Source: Bacteroidaceae bacterium
GTDB lineage: Bacteria; Bacteroidota; Bacteroidia; Bacteroidales; Barnesiellaceae_A
NCBI GenBank assembly: GCA_017935645.1
Contig: JAGBHF010000080.1
Location: 1 to 56,703 of the forward strand
Reading direction: 5' to 3'
DNA length: 56,703 nt
Each line of letters opens with the position of its first letter. Positions within the stretch are counted from its first letter, which is position 1. The translations under genes and the position numbers were made by a program. Of the stretch, positions 19,867 through 31,143 are shown one piece after another. Below the pieces are notes generated by a model. It was not told the origin of the DNA. It worked only from the letters and a program-made list of their open reading frames with translations, and did not search any database.

Positions 19867-20043
19867 ATAAAAGAAGGCTTATATACATTACAATACTTAC
19901 ACATTATAATCCAAAACAAAATCTCTTTTTATTAAATAAGTTTTTGTCTCTTCACCATCCAATACAATGAATATTGACATATGCTATTTTTCATACACAC
20001 ATTTCTTATAAATATAAATTTATGTTAAATATTTATACATTTA

Positions 20044-20075
20044 TTTGGAAAAGTAAAAATAATTACATATATTAG
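20044..20075 (+). promoter_or_regulatory. -33/-7 promoter of the small exported peptide gene
   Basis: TTTG at 20044-20047 and TATATTAG at 20068-20075 are spaced by 20 bases; the -7 box has one mismatch to TAnnTTTG. Transcription starting near 20082 gives a leader of about 24 bases. Confidence 0.6.
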
Positions 20076-20105
20076 CCATGCACTTAACTATTAACACCAA
20101 ATACC

Positions 20106-20288
20106 ATGAAGAAAAAAATCTTTTTAACATTAGTCGTAGTAGCTATGACTATTGGAGGTGCATCAGCTGCATTTTTATACACAGCATGGTGCGGAGTACA
20201 AACTATCACAGTGGACCCATCTTTTTTTGACTCCCCAGAAGAGGCTTTAGATTTTTATAGGGAGTTGGATGAAATTCTGTGTGGTTAA
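20106..20288 (+). CDS. Small exported two-cysteine peptide
   Basis: The 60-residue protein has a clear signal peptide (MKKKIFLTLVVVAMTIGGASA), with cleavage likely after GASA or GASAA near residue 22. The mature part of about 38 residues is acidic, aromatic and carries just two cysteines, each followed by Gly (TAWCGV and the C-terminal LCG). These could form a disulfide in the periplasm or outside the cell. I do not recognise the family, and it does not match the NVEALA peptides I know. It has its own promoter and is separated from the GLPGLI gene by a hairpin (20301-20325), so it is probably made in excess over the downstream genes. It may be a structural peptide, signal, toxin or ligand of the downstream barrel. 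Confidence 0.7.
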   Translation: MKKKIFLTLVVVAMTIGGASAAFLYTAWCGVQTITVDPSFFDSPEEALDFYRELDEILCG

Positions 20289-20300
20289 CAAAACTAACGA

Positions 20301-20325
20301 AGGCTGTGTTTCTCAAACACAGCCT
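20301..20325 (+). terminator. Hairpin between the peptide gene and the GLPGLI gene
   Basis: A perfect 11-base stem, AGGCTGTGTTT with AAACACAGCCT, encloses a 3-base loop. The following CTATTAACTT has no good T-run, so partial termination or a 3'-end stabiliser is more likely than full termination. Confidence 0.65.
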
Positions 20326-20348
20326 CTATTAACTTAAAATTTTCACTT

Positions 20349-21179
20349 ATGAAAAAATATACAACAATCTTTTTTATCTTATTTACGCTCCTTAGTTCTG
20401 CTCAGCTTCCCAAGGAGTATCTCAATCAGCCGGCAAATCTAAAACCTATTATCAAACTTGACAATAGCATAATGCAGTGTGTATATCAACATACTACATA
20501 CGACCCGGATTTAGAAAAATATGAAGACACATACGAGATACTGGAAATAGGCAGCAACTATAGTAAGTATGGGAATTATGGAGCATATCAGCTCGACTCG
20601 GCACTACATACTTACAATGGTGCGACGTTGACCAACGGACAATATGCTATACTATTTAAAAAATACGACCCCAATTATGAATGTATCATTAAAAATAAGA
20701 AAAACGAAAATTTAGAACACTACGGCAAAGTATTCATAGACTATTATATTTACGAAGAGCCTATACCTCAAATAAAATGGGAACTTGAAGGAGGTAAAGC
20801 CATTATATGCGGGTACACTTGCCACAAAGCAACAGCCACATTTCGCGGTAGACAGTGGACGGCATGGTACAGCGACATACCCGTTGACAATGGACCGTGG
20901 AAATTAGGAAATCTTCCCGGGCTTATACTTAAAGCCGAAGACGCTACAGGCGAACATATTATTGAGGCTATCATACTGAAGCAGGACAAAGCTAGTATAG
21001 GTTACAGAAAATTTCTCTACAGTCGCACAACTCGCGAAAAGTACAACAAGTCATTGAAGGAGTATAAGGAAGAGGCTCACAAATTCTTTCAAGGTGAGTT
21101 ACAACCCCAAAACCCTGATGGTACGCCGATGAATATACCCAAACGTAAATTGTTCTACAACCCATTAGAAAAAGAATAA
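20349..21179 (+). CDS. GLPGLI family exported protein
   Basis: The 276-residue protein has a Sec signal (FFILFTLLSSAQ, cleavage near residue 19). Its hallmark block reads ATFRGRQWTAWYSDIPVDNGPWK and then GNLPGLILKAED (about 186-197), a one-residue variant of the name-giving motif (Asn for the first Gly). The family is restricted mainly to Bacteroidota, and its function is unknown. Members are often encoded beside an outer-membrane barrel with a carboxypeptidase-regulatory-like domain, as here: the next gene starts 5 bases after this stop. The upstream small peptide gene makes a three-gene cassette. Periplasmic location is inferred from the signal. Confidence 0.88.
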   Translation: MKKYTTIFFILFTLLSSAQLPKEYLNQPANLKPIIKLDNSIMQCVYQHTTYDPDLEKYEDTYEILEIGSNYSKYGNYGAYQLDSALHTYNGATLTNGQYAILFKKYDPNYECIIKNKKNENLEHYGKVFIDYYIYEEPIPQIKWELEGGKAIICGYTCHKATATFRGRQWTAWYSDIPVDNGPWKLGNLPGLILKAEDATGEHIIEAIILKQDKASIGYRKFLYSRTTREKYNKSLKEYKEEAHKFFQGELQPQNPDGTPMNIPKRKLFYNPLEKE

Positions 21180-21184
21180 GTTAT

Positions 21185-23800
21185 ATGAATAGAGTATGTT
21201 GCATATTAGTGATGCTATTATACTCTGTTACTCTGTGCTGTGCCCAGCTTACTATTTCGGGGGTTATCACAACACAGGACGGTGAGAGCATAGTAGGCGC
21301 ATCGGTAAGGGTAACGAATAGTGATAATAAAATACTTGCCTATGCCATAAGCAATACGTTAGGCAAATACACAATTACACTTAACGATACGTTGCCCCGA
21401 CAACTGTGCATAACATACTCATGCATAGGATATAAAAAGATTGTACGCACTATAGAGTGTAAAGACGCAATCGAAGTGATTGACATACAACTGCAAGAAG
21501 AGAACTTTGAAATAGAAGAAATTATTGTAAAAGCCCCTGCCATAAAAAGGATTGGCGATACAATACAATATAATGTAGGAGCATTTGCAAGCCAAGCCGA
21601 CCGCAGTATTGAGGATGTGATAAAGAGACTTCCCGGCATACAGGTCGACAACAGCGGACGCATTTTTTACAACGGCGAGGCTATCAATAATTTTTACATC
21701 GAAGATATGGACTTGCTGGGTGGCCGATATGCCATTGCAACACAGAATATCAATCCCGATGAAATTGCCACGGTGAGTATTTATGAAAATCATCAACCCA
21801 AGCAAGTGCTTAAGGATGTTGTCATAAGTGACCGTGCGGCACTAAATCTGCGATTGAAAGATAAGAGCAAACTTCGTCCCATCGGCTATGCACACGCCGG
21901 CGGTGGATATGGCGAGGGCATCAATTGGCTGGGAGAGCTGTTTGGGATGCAAATATCAGAGAAAAACCAGACTATCGTCACAGCCAAAGGTAACAATACA
22001 GGCAATACTTATATACACGAAACACAATTGCTTACCGATAATAAAACCGACGAAACCGTGGCCTACAATATCTTCACACAACATCCATTCGGCACAATAA
22101 ATATACCCACGTCACGATACTACCGAAACACTTCGGCATCAACATCTGTCAATACACTTTTCAAAATTGACAAACATCTAAAAATAAGGGCATACGCCGA
22201 CTATAGCTACGAAAACAACAACTACTTCAATGAGGTGGAAATCGGCTATATGAGTATCGACAATGCGTCTATAAGAGTTGTAGAGAGCAATCGTGCAAGA
22301 TTGAACAACCACATTGTAAATGTGAACTTCAATATCGAAAACAATAACAATAGGTCGTATATATCAAACGACCTTGCCCTGAAAGGTCGCTTTTGCGACA
22401 ATACCTACAACGTAAACAACAATAACATCCTGCAACAATCCCTCAACAATAACGACTACCATATTACAAACGAGTTTGCCGGCATATTTAAAAACGGTCG
22501 CAACATATTCGATGTAAAGTCTCTTATCTCTTTTGGCTCCACACCTCGCAACGAGATTGTAGCAACCATTCCGGCAACAGACTCTTTGATAGTAACACAA
22601 ATAGCTACGGGCATGGCCTTTCACACACTCGAGAGTACATCCTACTCGTGGCTCATCAGTCAGGTGTCGCTCTTGGGCATCGAGGCCTCTTTTGAGGCTT
22701 TCTACGACCGGTTTTCTTCACAAAACGACCCAATCCCAACCCCCTCACGGCAAGGCAATGAAGTATCGGGATATAAAATAGTAACATCGGTCGTTCCATT
22801 TTATCAACTCAAGAACGAACATCTTACATGGCGCACCGAGATACCTCTAAGAATGTATGATATAGAATATCGCAATATAATAACCGGTGCCAAGCACCCA
22901 CTGCACAAGCCCTATATCGATATAAAGTCGAGCCTATATTTCAATCTCTTCGGCAGCATAAAAACCACCTTGTCAATAGGACGAGACCATACGATAGGCG
23001 ACATACAAGACTATATTACCACCCCTATATATACCACATACCGCCAACAAATTGCACTTGGAACGGGCAATTTAGGTATCAGAAGCAACAATTATATATC
23101 TCTGTCGGCCAACTATCGTAACAGCATAGAGGGCATATTTGCATCCTTGCGCACATCATACAATGTCATAACAAGCAACGAAATATCAACAACCTCAATC
23201 ACGGCCGATGAGGTTACATACGGACATATAACAACCGACAACAAAGGTAGCAATGCCAATCTGTTCTTTAATCTATCCAAGAATCAACGAAACTGGAATA
23301 CAACATTCACCCTATCGGGCGGAGCAATCTACCTAAAGAGAATGACACAAAGAGAGTCACAATTACTCAACGTAAAAACCCAAAATTACAGTATAGGGGC
23401 TGATATTCACAGCACCTTCTGGAATGAACGCATAAGCGGAAGGGTCAACCTCAGATATGGTGTTACGTCACAAACAACCGACATGCAAACAGATAACACT
23501 AACCTGCACGATTGGTTACTGACAGCCGAACTTTCGGTTTTCCCGGTCACATCATTGGAAATATTTTATACGTTGCACTATAACAAATCGGACTTGGCAA
23601 CCAACTCGAGTGCCGAAAACATTTTTATGGATAGTGGCATACGGTATAAAGATAAAGATTGGGTAGTTGAACTCAGAGGAAAAAACCTCACCAATGCGCA
23701 AGTTTACTCTTATAGTTACATAAACAACTACGACACATACACCTACAGTTGTCTTCTACGTCCCATCGAATTTATCCTCTCGTTTCAATACAGCTTCTGA
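21185..23800 (+). CDS. TonB-dependent-receptor-like outer-membrane barrel with CarboxypepD_reg domain
   Basis: The 871-residue protein has a signal peptide (about 1-20, ending CCAQ) and an N-terminal carboxypeptidase-regulatory-like beta-sandwich (about 22-110, GVITTQDGESIVGASVRV). A plug-like domain (about 118-215, RLPGIQVDNSGRIFYNGEAI) is followed by a long beta-barrel that ends in Phe (FILSFQYSF), as outer-membrane barrels do. It is the usual partner of GLPGLI proteins. By family analogy it could import or bind a peptide or small ligand using TonB energy. No SusD-like partner is next to it, so it is not a classical glycan-uptake pair. An AQ-rich TonB box was not obvious. Confidence 0.87.
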   Translation: MNRVCCILVMLLYSVTLCCAQLTISGVITTQDGESIVGASVRVTNSDNKILAYAISNTLGKYTITLNDTLPRQLCITYSCIGYKKIVRTIECKDAIEVIDIQLQEENFEIEEIIVKAPAIKRIGDTIQYNVGAFASQADRSIEDVIKRLPGIQVDNSGRIFYNGEAINNFYIEDMDLLGGRYAIATQNINPDEIATVSIYENHQPKQVLKDVVISDRAALNLRLKDKSKLRPIGYAHAGGGYGEGINWLGELFGMQISEKNQTIVTAKGNNTGNTYIHETQLLTDNKTDETVAYNIFTQHPFGTINIPTSRYYRNTSASTSVNTLFKIDKHLKIRAYADYSYENNNYFNEVEIGYMSIDNASIRVVESNRARLNNHIVNVNFNIENNNNRSYISNDLALKGRFCDNTYNVNNNNILQQSLNNNDYHITNEFAGIFKNGRNIFDVKSLISFGSTPRNEIVATIPATDSLIVTQIATGMAFHTLESTSYSWLISQVSLLGIEASFEAFYDRFSSQNDPIPTPSRQGNEVSGYKIVTSVVPFYQLKNEHLTWRTEIPLRMYDIEYRNIITGAKHPLHKPYIDIKSSLYFNLFGSIKTTLSIGRDHTIGDIQDYITTPIYTTYRQQIALGTGNLGIRSNNYISLSANYRNSIEGIFASLRTSYNVITSNEISTTSITADEVTYGHITTDNKGSNANLFFNLSKNQRNWNTTFTLSGGAIYLKRMTQRESQLLNVKTQNYSIGADIHSTFWNERISGRVNLRYGVTSQTTDMQTDNTNLHDWLLTAELSVFPVTSLEIFYTLHYNKSDLATNSSAENIFMDSGIRYKDKDWVVELRGKNLTNAQVYSYSYINNYDTYTYSCLLRPIEFILSFQYSF

Positions 23801-23947
23801 CATCACACAAAGAAAGGTTGCTAAAATGTAATATTCTACAACCTTATAAAAAACTTTTACACACGCATCATTGTTTTCATAATACAGTAACAATAGCCCA
23901 ATATTGTTGCAAGGAAAGTTTTCATATTAAACCTTAAAATCAGTGTT

Positions 23948-24604
23948 ATGAAAAAGGCAATTCCCATTCTACTCTTGGCTATGGCATTTATTGCCTGCCA
24001 AAAAGATCCCGACTTCAATCAATTGTCGAGCGATCTTATCGTCTATACCAACCACGACAAGAGTGCCAACTTTAGCAAGTACACAACGTATGCCATCCCC
24101 GACAGCATATTGGTACTCGACGACAAGAGCAAACCCACTTACTTTGCGGCCGACGACCCTCGTACCACCGCCATCGTAAATGCTATCAACAGCGAAATGA
24201 AAACACGCGGATATATCGAAGTACACAATAATGCCGATGCCGACATAGGTATACAAGTGAGCTATGTGAAAGACACCAATACGATTATCTCATACGCTGC
24301 CAGCAACCCTTATTGGTGGTACGGATACGACTATTATTGGCCGGGCAGCTATTGGAATCCCTATTGGTGGGGGTGGACACCTTCATACGCCTATCCTATC
24401 AGCTACACCTACACTATAGGCTCATTGATTATCGAGATGATTGCGCTGGAAGATGCCAATGCCGCAACCAAGAAGATACCCGTGATATGGACTGCTTACA
24501 TGGCCGGTATATTGTCGAGCAACCAACTCAACATCAACCGCACAGTATCGGGTATATATCAGGCATTTGAGCAATCGCCCTACATACAATCGGGTGTAAA
24601 ATAA
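23948..24604 (+). CDS. DUF4136-like lipoprotein, copy 1
   Basis: The 218-residue lipoprotein has a signal ending in AFIAC (Cys17). The following FSKYTTYAIPDSI and the paired-residue pattern up to ADADIGIQVSYV match the DUF4136 family of envelope lipoproteins. The middle has a remarkable aromatic stretch around residues 118-145 (NPYWWYGYDYYWPGSYWNPY), then a C-terminal segment ending with the family-like SGIYQAFEQSPYI. It is followed after 49 bases by a beta-barrel gene, and the pair is repeated downstream at 25446-26751. Function is unknown; binding to the barrel or to glycan through the aromatic stretch is conceivable. Confidence 0.8.
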   Translation: MKKAIPILLLAMAFIACQKDPDFNQLSSDLIVYTNHDKSANFSKYTTYAIPDSILVLDDKSKPTYFAADDPRTTAIVNAINSEMKTRGYIEVHNNADADIGIQVSYVKDTNTIISYAASNPYWWYGYDYYWPGSYWNPYWWGWTPSYAYPISYTYTIGSLIIEMIALEDANAATKKIPVIWTAYMAGILSSNQLNINRTVSGIYQAFEQSPYIQSGVK

Positions 24605-24653
24605 AGCGTGTAACACACACCCTACACAATAACCTTTTAAAAAACATACAGCA

Positions 24654-25280
24654 ATGAAAAAGATAACAAAAATATTAGCTACCGGCCTCCTTATGCTATG
24701 CTTGAGCGCAACCATGACAAGCCATGCACAAATCCTGAAAGGAGGATATTTCACCGTCGATTGGCAATTTAATGCCCCCGTCAGCAACGATTATGCCCCC
24801 GTGGCAAGTGGCTGGGGTATGGCATTTGAAGGCGGTTATTACATTATACCCAACATGTCGCTGGGATTGTTTATCTCGTACCACACCAACAACAAGTACA
24901 TTGGCGAGCAGGTACTACACCTGAGCAGTACCGAAAGCCTCTACACCGACCAACAGCACTCCATCTACCAAGTACCCTTTGGTGTAGCATCGCGATGGCG
25001 ATTTATCAAAGAGGGTATGTTCGAGCCATACATCGGTGTGAAACTCGGTGCTATGTACACCCGCATGGAGTCGAACACACAGGTGTACACCTATTACCAA
25101 GACCGGTGGGGATTTAATGTACAACCCGAGATAGGCATGAGCCTCTATCCCATGCCATCCAGTCGCACCGGTATACACCTCGCCCTCTACTACAGCTACT
25201 CGACCAACAAGAGCCACGTGCTCACATACAATATCGATGGCTACAACAACATCGGATTTCGATTGGGTATATCGTTTTAA
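24654..25280 (+). CDS. Outer-membrane beta-barrel protein, copy 1
   Basis: The 208-residue protein has a signal peptide (about 1-25, ending SHAQ). The rest is built of amphipathic strands with aromatic girdles (GYFTVDWQFNAP, GWGMAFEGGYYI, LALYYSYSTNKS) and a C-terminal Phe (GFRLGISF). That predicts a small outer-membrane barrel of about eight strands, like OmpA/OmpX-type proteins. It forms a pair with the preceding lipoprotein and is closed by a terminator at 25302-25329. No enzymatic motif is visible. Confidence 0.82.
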   Translation: MKKITKILATGLLMLCLSATMTSHAQILKGGYFTVDWQFNAPVSNDYAPVASGWGMAFEGGYYIIPNMSLGLFISYHTNNKYIGEQVLHLSSTESLYTDQQHSIYQVPFGVASRWRFIKEGMFEPYIGVKLGAMYTRMESNTQVYTYYQDRWGFNVQPEIGMSLYPMPSSRTGIHLALYYSYSTNKSHVLTYNIDGYNNIGFRLGISF

Positions 25281-25301
25281 TACTACACAATAACGACTAT
25301 C

Positions 25302-25329
25302 AGGAGCACCCGCAGTGGTGCTCTTTTTT
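25302..25329 (+). terminator. Terminator after the first lipoprotein/barrel pair
   Basis: The 7-base stem GAGCACC (25304-25310) with GGTGCTC (25317-25323) is followed by six T residues. Confidence 0.85.
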
Positions 25330-25402
25330 ATTACAGTACCACATTATTTTACATATCGAGCATTTTTTACATCAAATTACTTTTAAAACAAATTAATTAC
25401 AC

Positions 25403-25410
25403 TATATTTG
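25403..25410 (+). promoter_or_regulatory. -7 promoter element for the second lipoprotein/barrel pair
   Basis: TATATTTG matches TAnnTTTG, with a weak TTTT at 25381-25384 in the -33 area (18-base spacer). The leader would be about 30 bases. Confidence 0.5.
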
Positions 25411-25445
25411 CACAAAAATAAGCACAACATCTAACAAACACTTAT

Positions 25446-26093
25446 ATGAAAAAATTATTGCCATTATTACTCCTTACAATCATCGTTACCGGATGTCAGA
25501 AGGAGCCCGATTGGGGTAAATTATCAAACGACTTGTTGGTATACACCCACTACGATGAAGAGGTTGACTTTACAAAGTACAATACATTCTACATCCCCGA
25601 TAGTATACTCGTACTCGACAACAGCAAAAAGGAGCCGGTGTACATATCAAGCAACGACATCCGCGCCCATAGCATCTTAGAGGCTTTGACCGACGAAATG
25701 ACACGTTGCGGATATACACAGGTATACGACCGTGCCGATGCCGACTTGGGTATTATCACCAGTTACGTCAAGCGTACCAGCACTTATGTTGGCTATGACT
25801 ATCCCTACTGGTGGTTTGACTTCTACTACTATTGGCCATTCGACTATTGGGATCCCTACTATTACGATTGGTATCCCTACTATCCTTATCCCGTAACATA
25901 CTCATATACAACAGGTACTATTGCGGTTGAAATGATAGCATTGAAAGATGCCGACACATCGTCCAAGATGTTACCCTTTGTATGGACAGCCTGCATGGCA
26001 GGTATAGAGTCGAGCAATCAGATTAACATCTCGAATGCCATAGCCGGTATATATCAGGCATTTGAACAATCGCCTTATATCAATGCACAATAA
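25446..26093 (+). CDS. DUF4136-like lipoprotein, copy 2
   Basis: The 215-residue protein is a paralog of the lipoprotein at 23948. It shares the signal ending in a lipobox Cys (VTGC, Cys17), then KEPDWGKLSNDLLVYTHYD and YNTFYIPDSILVLD. The aromatic middle is even denser, with WWFDFYYYWPFDYWDPYYYD and further Tyr/Pro repeats at about 120-150. The C-terminus again reads AGIYQAFEQSPYI. Its promoter lies between the first pair's terminator and this gene, so the two pairs can be regulated separately. Function is unknown. Confidence 0.8.
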   Translation: MKKLLPLLLLTIIVTGCQKEPDWGKLSNDLLVYTHYDEEVDFTKYNTFYIPDSILVLDNSKKEPVYISSNDIRAHSILEALTDEMTRCGYTQVYDRADADLGIITSYVKRTSTYVGYDYPYWWFDFYYYWPFDYWDPYYYDWYPYYPYPVTYSYTTGTIAVEMIALKDADTSSKMLPFVWTACMAGIESSNQINISNAIAGIYQAFEQSPYINAQ

Positions 26094-26127
26094 CAGCCTA
26101 TATACACACATCATAAACACGACTACA

Positions 26128-26751
26128 ATGAAGACAACAAAGATATTAGGCATCATAATGCTACTATGTGCCGCAATAATGCCCTGCACAGCACACGCAC
26201 AACTATACAAGTCGACCTATTACAACATCGATTGGCAACTAAATACACCTGTATTCACCGACTATGCCAACGTAACAAGCGGTTGGGGTATGAACTTTGA
26301 GGGTGGATACTATGTATCATCCAAGATAGCCGTGGGTCTCTATGGCTCATTCCACACCAACAACGAATATGTAGAGCCTCAAGTACTGCAACTCAACTCG
26401 TCAAGCAACCTTTACACCGACCAAGTGCAAAGTATATTCCAAATCCCCTTTGGAGCCTTGATTAAATATCGCTTTATCGAAGACTCGATGTTTGAGCCAT
26501 ACGTAACAGCCAAGCTCGGTACAAACTATGTACGCATGTCATCAATCAACAACGTATTGGACTTCTACAGCGACTCATGGGGCTTCAATGTTCAACCGGA
26601 GGTAGGTGTTTCGATATTCCCCTCGGCACACAACCGCATAGGTATACACTTGGCTTTGTATTACAGCTACTCGACCAATCAAAATCAATGCCTTGTATAC
26701 AACCTCAACGGACTTAATAACGTCGGCTTCAATATCGGTATAACATTCTGA
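26128..26751 (+). CDS. Outer-membrane beta-barrel protein, copy 2
   Basis: The protein has 207 residues from the ATG at 26128, which places a signal peptide at the N-terminus (ILGIIMLLCAAIMPCTAHAQ). An upstream ATG that overlaps the preceding gene would add 22 polar residues and is rejected. It is a clear paralog of the barrel at 24654, with matching YYNIDWQLNTP, GWGMNFEGGYYV, SYSTNQNQ and a terminal Phe (GFNIGITF). A strong terminator follows. Confidence 0.82.
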   Translation: MKTTKILGIIMLLCAAIMPCTAHAQLYKSTYYNIDWQLNTPVFTDYANVTSGWGMNFEGGYYVSSKIAVGLYGSFHTNNEYVEPQVLQLNSSSNLYTDQVQSIFQIPFGALIKYRFIEDSMFEPYVTAKLGTNYVRMSSINNVLDFYSDSWGFNVQPEVGVSIFPSAHNRIGIHLALYYSYSTNQNQCLVYNLNGLNNVGFNIGITF

Positions 26752-26797
26752 CAAACAACACATACGACCCATATACATCCGACGTCGTATCATACCG

Positions 26798-26841
26798 CCA
26801 CTCTCAAATGCGTAATTAAGACATTTGAGAGTGGTGTTTTT
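26798..26841 (+). terminator. Terminator after the second lipoprotein/barrel pair
   Basis: A perfect 13-base stem (CCACTCTCAAATG at 26798-26810 with CATTTGAGAGTGG at 26822-26834) is followed by TGTTTTT. Confidence 0.9.
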
Positions 26842-28923: not shown

Positions 28924-29481
28924 CTACAGATACCGCACCTTATACTCATCCTCCTCAACCGAGCGTATAGGGTATATGCGTCGCATACCCACCTCGCCCT
29001 TATTCTTATAAGCGGCTTCTATCAAGATATGCTTGCGCGTCTTATCAAGTCGCACTACACTTTTATACAAATCATATCGCGTCAGGATTCCTGCTTTCAT
29101 GGTCATGTTCTTGGTATCCTCGTATAATCCCTGACCTAAATAGCCCAGCACCTCACCCTGCTCGAAGAACATATCTTGATAATACGACACAGCCGACCAC
29201 ATTCTTATACGATGTGAGTAATAGACACTATGATTCATATCATTGATACGCTCGATGGCCATAAAGCAATGCTGTTCGGGACCTACCAACAACCACACCC
29301 CCTCCCAATCGTCTACGGCAGCGGTATCGAGATAAGCCACAAAACGCTCTTTATCGAGAGGTTCGGGAAACTCTATCAATGGCAACTTATACCCCTTGGT
29401 AACGCCATAGTAGGGGCTACAGCTTACTATCGACAAGAGTATTACTACTCCTATAAAGCTGTATATCATCCCCCTATGCAT
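28924..29481 (-). CDS. Hypothetical lipoprotein
   Basis: The protein has 185 residues from the ATG at complement 29479-29481. A Met four codons later would give an equally good signal; the longer upstream frame overlaps the DUF3078-like gene and lacks sense. The signal (IYSFIGVVILLSIVSC) ends in a lipidation Cys. I do not recognise the mature part, which is rich in strands and aromatics (HSVYYSHRIRMWSAVSYYQD). It starts 8 bases after the stop of the gene at 29490, with which it is probably co-transcribed. Confidence 0.65.
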   Translation of the reverse strand: MHRGMIYSFIGVVILLSIVSCSPYYGVTKGYKLPLIEFPEPLDKERFVAYLDTAAVDDWEGVWLLVGPEQHCFMAIERINDMNHSVYYSHRIRMWSAVSYYQDMFFEQGEVLGYLGQGLYEDTKNMTMKAGILTRYDLYKSVVRLDKTRKHILIEAAYKNKGEVGMRRIYPIRSVEEDEYKVRYL

Positions 29482-29489
29482 ATATACTT

Positions 29490-30932
29490 TTATATCTTGT
29501 ACGAGAAGCCCAGACTGAGCAACTCCTTGATTTGCCAAAAGCCCAATTTAGGATCGGGAGCCACGCTATTGTCATATCGCAAGTCGACATACAAGCGAGC
29601 CGAGAAGTAGGTCGAGAATGAGAAGTCGAGCGAATTGGTCCACTCCAACAACACATTCTTATAGTTGGTAAACGCATACAAGTGCGACATCCATCGTATA
29701 TTGTAGCGCAAATCCCATGTCAACGTATAATCCAATGACGAACCTATATCGTTACGAGCACGACCGTTATCGATACCAAACTTCACAGGGTCGATGCTGG
29801 GTAATGCCACAAAACGAAGGTTGTAAGAGAGGTGCGACAAGGTGAGGGTGTGCGACAACTTGACAGGTTTCTCATAAGCAAACGAATAAGAGAGACCGAC
29901 ACCGACATTCAACTCACCCGGCGAGAGGAATTCAGCTTGCTTTTCAGTCGAATTGGCTGCATAGTTGGTAAGCAACTGTGTCTTGAACAACATCGATGCC
30001 GAATAGTACCACTTACCAAAGGCCTTGTAACCGAATTTCGAATTTATCTGGAATAAATCCTCACTCACACGCACACTATGTACAGTATCCTCGGCCGAGG
30101 TAGTAAGGTTAAACTTCCATTGTATCAAGTTCTCAAACAGCAACTTACCGCTGGGGTCATTATAGTTGAACGTGAAGAGTTGGTCGCTCAACAAGTTCAA
30201 ACTGCTATTGCCGCCTTGATACCAATTGTCCGACACATACACTTGTGACAATTGTATATTGCTACTGAACGATGTTCTCCAACGTTTTATTTTCACAGGC
30301 TTACTCTCCAATGCCGAAGTTATAATCTCTCGAGGTTTCTCAACAATTGTTATAGTCTGCTTGGTAGGGTCATTTATGATGACATACTCTTTAGGAGCCT
30401 TGGGTAAGTTTTCATAGTTATACTTCACCAAGTCAGGGCGATTTACTATCAGATAGTTACGAGCCGAACGCATGCGACCGGCCAAGCGTTTCTCGCGTTG
30501 CAACCATGTATCACGGCTCGACAGAACAGCCTCTTTATCTATCTTATAAGTCTGCGGAAGGTATTGCACATTGGCAACAGTAAGGCCTTCGTAAGGTATA
30601 TTTTCATACTTCTCAAAGACGAGAGGCATAAACAACAGACTTGTCGCATAACGAGGCAATCCATTATCCTCAACAGGCTCTACCTTATACAGTTGCCACA
30701 ACGAATCGGAAATGATAATAGTACTGTCAGTCACAATGATACAGTCGTGAGCCACACTATCCGGGCCGGCTACAACAGTATTATTTACCATTGTCGTATC
30801 ACCAACTATTGCAGATGTATTATTTACTGTAACAGAGTCATTGGGAGTAATAGCACTACCGGCAACATCTTGAGCAAAAACGGGAGTAAGGATAGCCGAG
30901 AGTAAAAGGCTGATGAATATAAATTGTCGCAT
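29490..30932 (-). CDS. DUF3078-like outer-membrane protein
   Basis: The protein has 480 residues from the Met at complement 30930-30932, giving the signal MRQFIFISLLLSAILTPVFA. A Thr/Val/Asp-rich stretch of about 80 residues follows, then a domain beginning WRTSFSSNIQLSQVYVSDNWYQGGNSSLNLLS, which resembles DUF3078 proteins of Bacteroidota. The last 250 residues look like a beta-barrel (FNYNDPSGKLLFENLIQWKF, ending LGFSYKI). Function is unknown. A near-consensus -7 box (TATCTTCG, complement of 30971-30978) lies 38 bases upstream and diverges from pyrG. Confidence 0.75.
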   Translation of the reverse strand: MRQFIFISLLLSAILTPVFAQDVAGSAITPNDSVTVNNTSAIVGDTTMVNNTVVAGPDSVAHDCIIVTDSTIIISDSLWQLYKVEPVEDNGLPRYATSLLFMPLVFEKYENIPYEGLTVANVQYLPQTYKIDKEAVLSSRDTWLQREKRLAGRMRSARNYLIVNRPDLVKYNYENLPKAPKEYVIINDPTKQTITIVEKPREIITSALESKPVKIKRWRTSFSSNIQLSQVYVSDNWYQGGNSSLNLLSDQLFTFNYNDPSGKLLFENLIQWKFNLTTSAEDTVHSVRVSEDLFQINSKFGYKAFGKWYYSASMLFKTQLLTNYAANSTEKQAEFLSPGELNVGVGLSYSFAYEKPVKLSHTLTLSHLSYNLRFVALPSIDPVKFGIDNGRARNDIGSSLDYTLTWDLRYNIRWMSHLYAFTNYKNVLLEWTNSLDFSFSTYFSARLYVDLRYDNSVAPDPKLGFWQIKELLSLGFSYKI

Positions 30933-31143
30933 AGCTAAAACGTAATTTTGCAAAATAATCTTTTATTCTGCGAAGATAGTATAAATTCACGTTAAAACGG
31001 CTATAACGCGGTTGAAATTTACATCGAATTTTTCACCCTGCAAATACAACTTTTTCAAGACACTACACACCGACAATACCCCCTCACACAAATCTCTTTT
31101 TATTTATTGACTATTATATTGGGGTAATGTCGATAATTTTTCA

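Follow-up and report, generated by a model that had tools for sequence, protein, structure and literature searches.

The window analysed here, a 56,703-nucleotide stretch of DNA from a Bacteroidaceae bacterium (contig JAGBHF010000080.1 of assembly GCA_017935645.1, read on the forward strand), raises the question of why a gut bacterium should carry, twice in succession, a pair of genes whose products are an outer-membrane lipoprotein and a small β-barrel, and of what such a pair would do. Between positions 23948 and 26751 lie two tandem units, A and B, each consisting of a DUF4136 lipoprotein gene (lipA, lipB) and, directly behind it, a gene for a predicted eight-stranded barrel (barA, barB). 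The answer that we favor, and consider probable on the whole, is that an old two-gene outer-membrane operon was co-duplicated, that copy A would belong to an envelope regulon of an alternative sigma factor while copy B would be read from a housekeeping promoter, and that the two products of each unit would work as a complex.

The four open reading frames (ORFs), all on the forward strand, encode 218, 208, 215 and 207 amino acids. LipA (23948 to 24604) has a lipobox with Cys17, a mature protein that would start with CQKDPD and an insertion rich in Trp and Tyr; lipB (25446 to 26093) is its paralogue, with the start CQKEPD. Both pass the gathering cut-off of PF13590 (E 2e-27 and 9.7e-24; 96.9 and 85 bits versus 32.8), and a search of the genome turned up no third DUF4136 gene. 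BarA (24654 to 25280), with a signal peptide and a C-terminal Phe, and its paralogue barB (26128 to 26751) likewise pass the cut-off of OMP_b-brl (PF13505; E 9.1e-12 and 3e-11; 45.9 and 44.2 bits versus 28.7). OmpW (PF03922) gave 13.5 bits for barB against a cut-off of 24 and no match for barA. The barB frame is open upstream to 26062/26083, and the most likely start is 26128, the one that aligns with the other copies. Over their whole lengths, lipA and lipB are identical at 113 of 216 positions (52%) and barA and barB at 115 of 208 (55%), and the spacers within the pairs measure 49 bases in unit A and 34 in unit B. A predicted intrinsic terminator occupies part of the 165-base gap between the units (25302 to 25325, forward strand; hairpin of -13.7 kcal/mol, z -4.05), an exact -7 box precedes lipB, and a second hairpin followed by a T run lies 3′ of unit B (26796 to 26836, forward strand; -24.6 kcal/mol, z -7.5). 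The tandem duplication that a preliminary description had read at this site, with spacings of about 35 to 50 bases inside the pairs and a promoter or terminator for each unit, is thus borne out.

The pairing of the two genes is ancient and strict. Among 344 Bacteroidales genomes, the lipoprotein profile matches 69 and the barrel profile 60. Of the lipoprotein loci, all 28 with E≤1e-60 have a barrel gene downstream on the same strand, as do 34 of the 35 with E≤1e-40 and 59 of the 69 with E≤1e-20, and the median gap over the thresholds used is 34 to 42 bases. Behind the 28 closest lipoprotein matches the barrel gene begins after 16 to 130 bases, and 65 of 71 barrel matches adjoin a lipoprotein. 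From fetched loci, 64 pairs were gathered; a refined profile built on these loci showed that two seemingly unpaired places (in G292 and G178) do carry a barrel, and most of the six DUF4136 genes that lack a barrel in the fetched loci are generic, short proteins poorer in Trp and Tyr. In a sample of 218 genomes from the phylum, the lipoprotein profile matches 42 and the barrel profile 9, so the strict subfamily belongs mainly to Bacteroidales. Tandem pairs were seen in this genus only; outside it, 7 of the 344 genomes have two barrel matches, all at separate places. No third gene is kept beside the pair across families. Near eight distant pairs (L042, L081, L082, L083, L088, L090, L095 and L100) there is an additional small barrel-like gene of one family, two tested members of which match OMP_b-brl just below the cut-off.

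The unit was duplicated whole, in one Bacteroidales lineage, where relatives keep a single copy. Both pairs are present in eight of the nine genomes of the genus, that of the window counted, and the ninth, G007, has a single pair. The A and B sequences (eight each) form one clade apiece in the lipoprotein tree (support 98/98 and 99/93), in the barrel tree (100/99 and 100/97) and in a joint tree computed without three long-branched rows, L040, L078 and L058 (100/99 and 100/99). The two phylogenies, whose disagreement on the timing of duplication would have spoken against an origin as pairs, therefore agree. In a neighboring family, f109 (three genomes), a single pair is followed by the same 518-amino-acid, lipocalin, 189-amino-acid and DUF3078 genes as here, which indicates an ancestral location and a derived tandem arrangement. 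The joint tree groups the pair of G007 with A (98/94), and a duplication after the split of G007 has a p of 0.051 in the approximately unbiased (AU) test on the joint alignment and of 0.060 on the lipoprotein alone; G007 may have lost B or may never have had it. Order and spacing were said in the preliminary description to be retained. The order is, and the spacing is not: spacers within pairs vary, and in some relatives other genes lie between the pairs. A DUF6169 gene stands there in G001 and G006 (L031:7740-8216 and L037:3802-4278) and an antisense ORF in G004, and in G005 an inverted block holding B has left the two pairs 8.3 kb apart, both intact. In G001, the 29 bases at 25321 to 25349 of the window are present to the left and to the right of the DUF6169 gene, so the close spacing of 165 bases in the window may be derived.

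Units A and B carry, as judged from their upstream sequences, different promoter classes. In Bacteroides, TAnnTTTG at -7 is the box recognized by the primary sigma factor, and there is another promoter motif, PM2, whose boxes lie near -10 and -30 (PMC7366714); PM2-like promoters, with 'TGTT' near -10, have been tied to extracytoplasmic function (ECF) sigma factors (PMC12596196). Upstream of lipB, the candidate -7 box TATATTTG (25403 to 25410, forward strand) is an exact TAnnTTTG of the housekeeping class. Upstream of lipA, at 23851 to 23891 on the same strand, lies an element that the genus conserves upstream of pair A, AAACTTTTACACACGCATCATTGTTTT (23851 to 23877), continuing to TACAGTAAC, in which the A copies show AAACTTT-N11..13-TTGTT. 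Its sequence resembles that of PM2 of Bacteroides thetaiotaomicron, with a 'TGTT' and an upstream box that would lie near -10 and -30, a likeness drawn from the textual descriptions of PM2 (PMC7366714, PMC12596196), and we infer that it is an alternative-sigma, ECF-like promoter. Over the 150 bases that precede the lipoprotein gene, compared with shuffled sequence, TAnnTTTG occurs in 8/8 B copies (shuffled mean 0.81) and in 0/9 A-type copies, that of G007 included (0.99), and AAC.TT-N11..14-TTGTT in 8/9 A-type copies (0.06) and 0/8 B copies (0.02). With up to three mismatches allowed, the longer A element has a single site per genome in seven of the nine genus genomes (0/9 for a reversed control), always before pair A or before the single pair of G007. 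Neighboring genes used as controls have TAnnTTTG upstream in 4/4 (gene 14780), 6/6 (18751) and 6/7 (26882) genomes. Among distant pairs, AAC.TT-N11..14-TTGTT is found in 0/25 and TAnnTTTG in 17/25 (shuffled 3.3); the close single-pair relatives suggest that the A-type promoter is older than the B type. A generic sigma-70 scan was uninformative, with 10 sites versus 9.0 expected, and is of no use in this phylum. The proposal that the two units may be regulated separately thus gains more support than it had claimed, from the differing promoter classes read upstream and from the inversion in G005, after which both units were kept.

The most independent support for the A element comes from a gene unrelated to the pair, since the element was defined on lipA and only then found elsewhere. 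The strict form AAACTTT-N11..13-TTGTTNT has 25 sites in the nine genus genomes, versus 8 for the reversed pattern; six precede lipA (the single pair of G007 counted) and another six precede one orthologous protein of 430 amino acids, and for the other 13 no common gene was recognized. This protein is a DcaP-like porin (PF19577, E 2.4e-14; 53.7 bits versus a cut-off of 27), found in eight of the nine genomes (L127:180-1472 on contig 50 of G000). The looser A-type pattern was detected upstream of it by script in seven of the eight, and the eighth, in G006, where the script took an ATG within the element for the start codon, is among the strict sites, giving 8/8; TAnnTTTG occurs there in 0/8.

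Several observations weigh against this reading. The A copy of G003 does not fit AAC.TT-N11..14-TTGTT, and of the 22 close relatives with a single pair only 9 have the pattern (shuffled 0.07), a relative with only 28 upstream bases being scored as a miss. The expression itself was composed after the sites had been inspected, so these promoter counts describe and do not test. A possible unit start at 29490 has TAnnTTTG in only 1/6 genomes, and absence of this motif is therefore not unique to A. The 28 bases that lead up to the -7 box of lipB show no -33 box TTTG; the spacing of this box is variable in B. thetaiotaomicron (PMC7366714). Seven ECF sigma genes scored above the Pfam cut-off in a search for autoregulation, and the A-type element is absent within 150 bases upstream of all seven, L150 having one at 199; accordingly, we name no sigma factor. 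On the side of the proteins, a threshold relaxed to E≤1e-3 gives 102 lipoprotein matches, only 68 of them with a barrel. The putative physical complex is deduced from gene pairing, and the promoter classes proposed for this organism are read from sequence.

What, then, would the pairing mean for the proteins? The lipoprotein belongs, by sequence and by fold, to the subfamily of BT2437 from B. thetaiotaomicron (PDB 4F54), a close DUF4136 relative, with the Trp/Tyr-rich insertion: 4F54 is matched at E 6.3e-43 by sequence and 3.5e-69 by profile, and the lipoprotein model superposes on it with Z 22.5 and a root-mean-square deviation (rmsd) of 2.3 over 173 residues at 34% identity. In the family of G128 (four genomes), the 4F54 sequence has one match, at 54%, in a genome other than that of B. 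thetaiotaomicron. The models are the best of five. That of the lipoprotein has a predicted local distance difference test score (pLDDT) of 77.4, falling to about 50 in some of the Trp/Tyr-rich loop, and that of the barrel has 81.5, with two of the five models under 48; given this quality, our reading is confined to the regions outside the loops. The predicted barrel has eight strands and resembles small barrels (Z 15 to 18), such as a Legionella Dot/Icm porin and OmpA, NspA and OmpW (Z 15 to 17 for these three), and the C-terminal Phe is invariant in 17 barrel sequences; barA and barB would thus be small eight-stranded outer-membrane barrels. A lipoprotein docked on such a barrel seems to us the best-supported mechanistic reading. 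A possible precedent is BT1927/BT1926, in which a surface lipoprotein stands beside a predicted eight-stranded barrel that has been proposed as its outer-membrane anchor or secretion partner (PMC12578637); the likeness is one of description, and BT1927 differs in being a 100-kDa phase-variable S-layer protein.

Several observations bear on whether the lipoprotein faces the outside. An expression-library clone of BT2437 reacted with gut immunoglobulin A (IgA) of colonized mice on a standard diet at week 6 (PMC6831775), so that in mice one DUF4136 protein, whose structure has been solved, is a target of gut IgA; the reactivity fits, and does not show, exposure on the surface or on vesicles. The main texts of PMC12596196, PMC13088901, PMC7366714 and PMC10994844 gave no match for BT2437. 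The Capnocytophaga export signal C-X-K-(D/E)2-X, with Lys two residues past the Cys and then two acidic residues (PMC5080379), differs from CQKDPD and CQKEPD, which have the Lys and the first acidic residue and a Pro at the second acidic position. For B. fragilis, however, a different signal (SDDDD) has been proposed, so the lipoproteins may still be exposed at the surface. A DUF4136 protein of the same Pfam family is also encoded in a Burkholderia biofilm operon, beside a two-component system and with no barrel partner in the part of that account considered here (PMC5192318).

The explanation that competes best with a complex is that the two genes share an operon since both products are needed under the same envelope condition, with no contact between them. 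We take it as a serious possibility, though one that we would not bet on. The DcaP-like porin has the A-type element without being adjacent, and shared regulation therefore needs no contact; on the other hand, the adjacency and order of lipoprotein and barrel persist across many families with differing promoters and neighbors, which tells against this explanation.

A second explanation holds that the copies are interchangeable and retained for dosage only, with drift accounting for the difference between their promoters. All four genes are under purifying selection, with ratios of nonsynonymous to synonymous divergence (dN/dS) versus G001, the nearest relative, of 0.04 for lipA, 0.07 for barA, 0.10 for lipB and 0.05 for barB by Nei-Gojobori counts. 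Fixed differences between A and B across the eight genomes number only 9 sites in the lipoprotein and 8 in the barrel; the suggestion that the units may have diverged in ligand thus finds little to stand on, and strong conservation of both copies with so few fixed differences is what dosage predicts. We nevertheless think dosage unlikely: the promoter classes stay distinct in the eight two-pair genomes, even in G005 with its separated units, and the B copies have changed faster than the A copies (measured against G003, dN is 0.284 for lipB versus 0.104 for lipA and 0.298 for barB versus 0.170 for barA). At synonymous sites the four genes differ little from those of G001 (dS of 0.15 to 0.35, versus 0.5 to 1.25 in neighbors), which recent exchange, or a strong codon bias such as abundant proteins have, would lead one to expect.

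Third, the lipoprotein might assemble into a ring of several subunits that sits on an outer-membrane barrel and serves polymer export, after the manner of PelC, a lipoprotein that docks on the barrel of PelB in an exopolysaccharide exporter (PMC12141448). The predicted fold resembles PelC (Z 8.4 to 8.6, rmsd 3.8 to 3.9, 117 to 126 residues) and the TraT decamers (Z 7.3 to 7.9), and the PelBC complex depends on a conserved Trp of PelC (PMC12141448). These matches, together with the PDZ protein 4L8N (Z 10.9), fall far below that to 4F54, and a Z near 8 may reflect a common arrangement. PelB is a large barrel protein with tetratricopeptide repeats (TPR), and the partner here is a small barrel of 207 to 208 amino acids with eight predicted strands and no TPR scaffold; moreover, no third gene accompanies the pair across families. 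We regard an exporter of this kind as improbable. Last, separate duplication or transfer of lipoprotein and barrel, for which only the uncertain position of the single pair of G007 in the barrel tree could speak (AU p 0.58 for a duplication after its split), is rejected as highly implausible, the two trees being concordant, with A and B clades of identical members, and the locus syntenic.

Other features of the locus were noted as well. A terminator script found none after barA in G003, and the same script missed the window's own terminator between the units. In the genome of the window, pair A is preceded at 20013 to 23651 by a GLPGLI-family gene and a gene for an 871-amino-acid protein resembling carboxypeptidase-regulatory/TonB-receptor proteins. 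G001 is without this segment, with a 5-base overlap at the junction, yet it retains the 150 bases at the end of the second gene, so the two genes were probably deleted there. On the opposite strand, 28924 to 30953 encodes a protein of 185 to 204 amino acids without a Pfam match, which is fast-evolving (66% identity to G001), and a DUF3078 protein; both are kept with the pair locus in f109 as well.

Returning to the co-duplicated operon as the favored explanation, we picture its working as follows. An old operon of a DUF4136 lipoprotein and a small eight-stranded barrel was duplicated in tandem as a whole unit, and its products would form one outer-membrane complex in which the barrel would be the membrane-embedded anchor or assembly partner and the Trp/Tyr-rich insertion of the lipoprotein may lie at the membrane or at a ligand. 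Copy A would have stayed, together with the DcaP-like porin, under an alternative, probably ECF, sigma factor and would be made under particular envelope conditions; copy B would have moved to a housekeeping promoter and may supply the module in ordinary growth. More tentatively, and at somewhat less than an even chance, the Bacteroidales-wide module and the DcaP-like porin may make up a small alternative-sigma envelope regulon, which one duplicated module would have left by way of a housekeeping promoter, so that the same complex would exist in an induced and in a constitutive form.

Within the literature searched, the strict module, its co-duplication and the proposed promoter switch are new, and the protein family and its fold were already known; the parts of the DUF4136 literature that our search covered describe no barrel partner. 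DUF4136 proteins are common in Bacteroidota, and for this subfamily we found no role in that literature. The strict pairing points to a partner worth looking for, and the promoter element common to lipA and the DcaP-like porin points to a condition worth looking under. Units A and B would then amount to a natural experiment, one module behind two putative promoter classes in the same genome, in which the costs and benefits of induced and constant expression may be compared directly.

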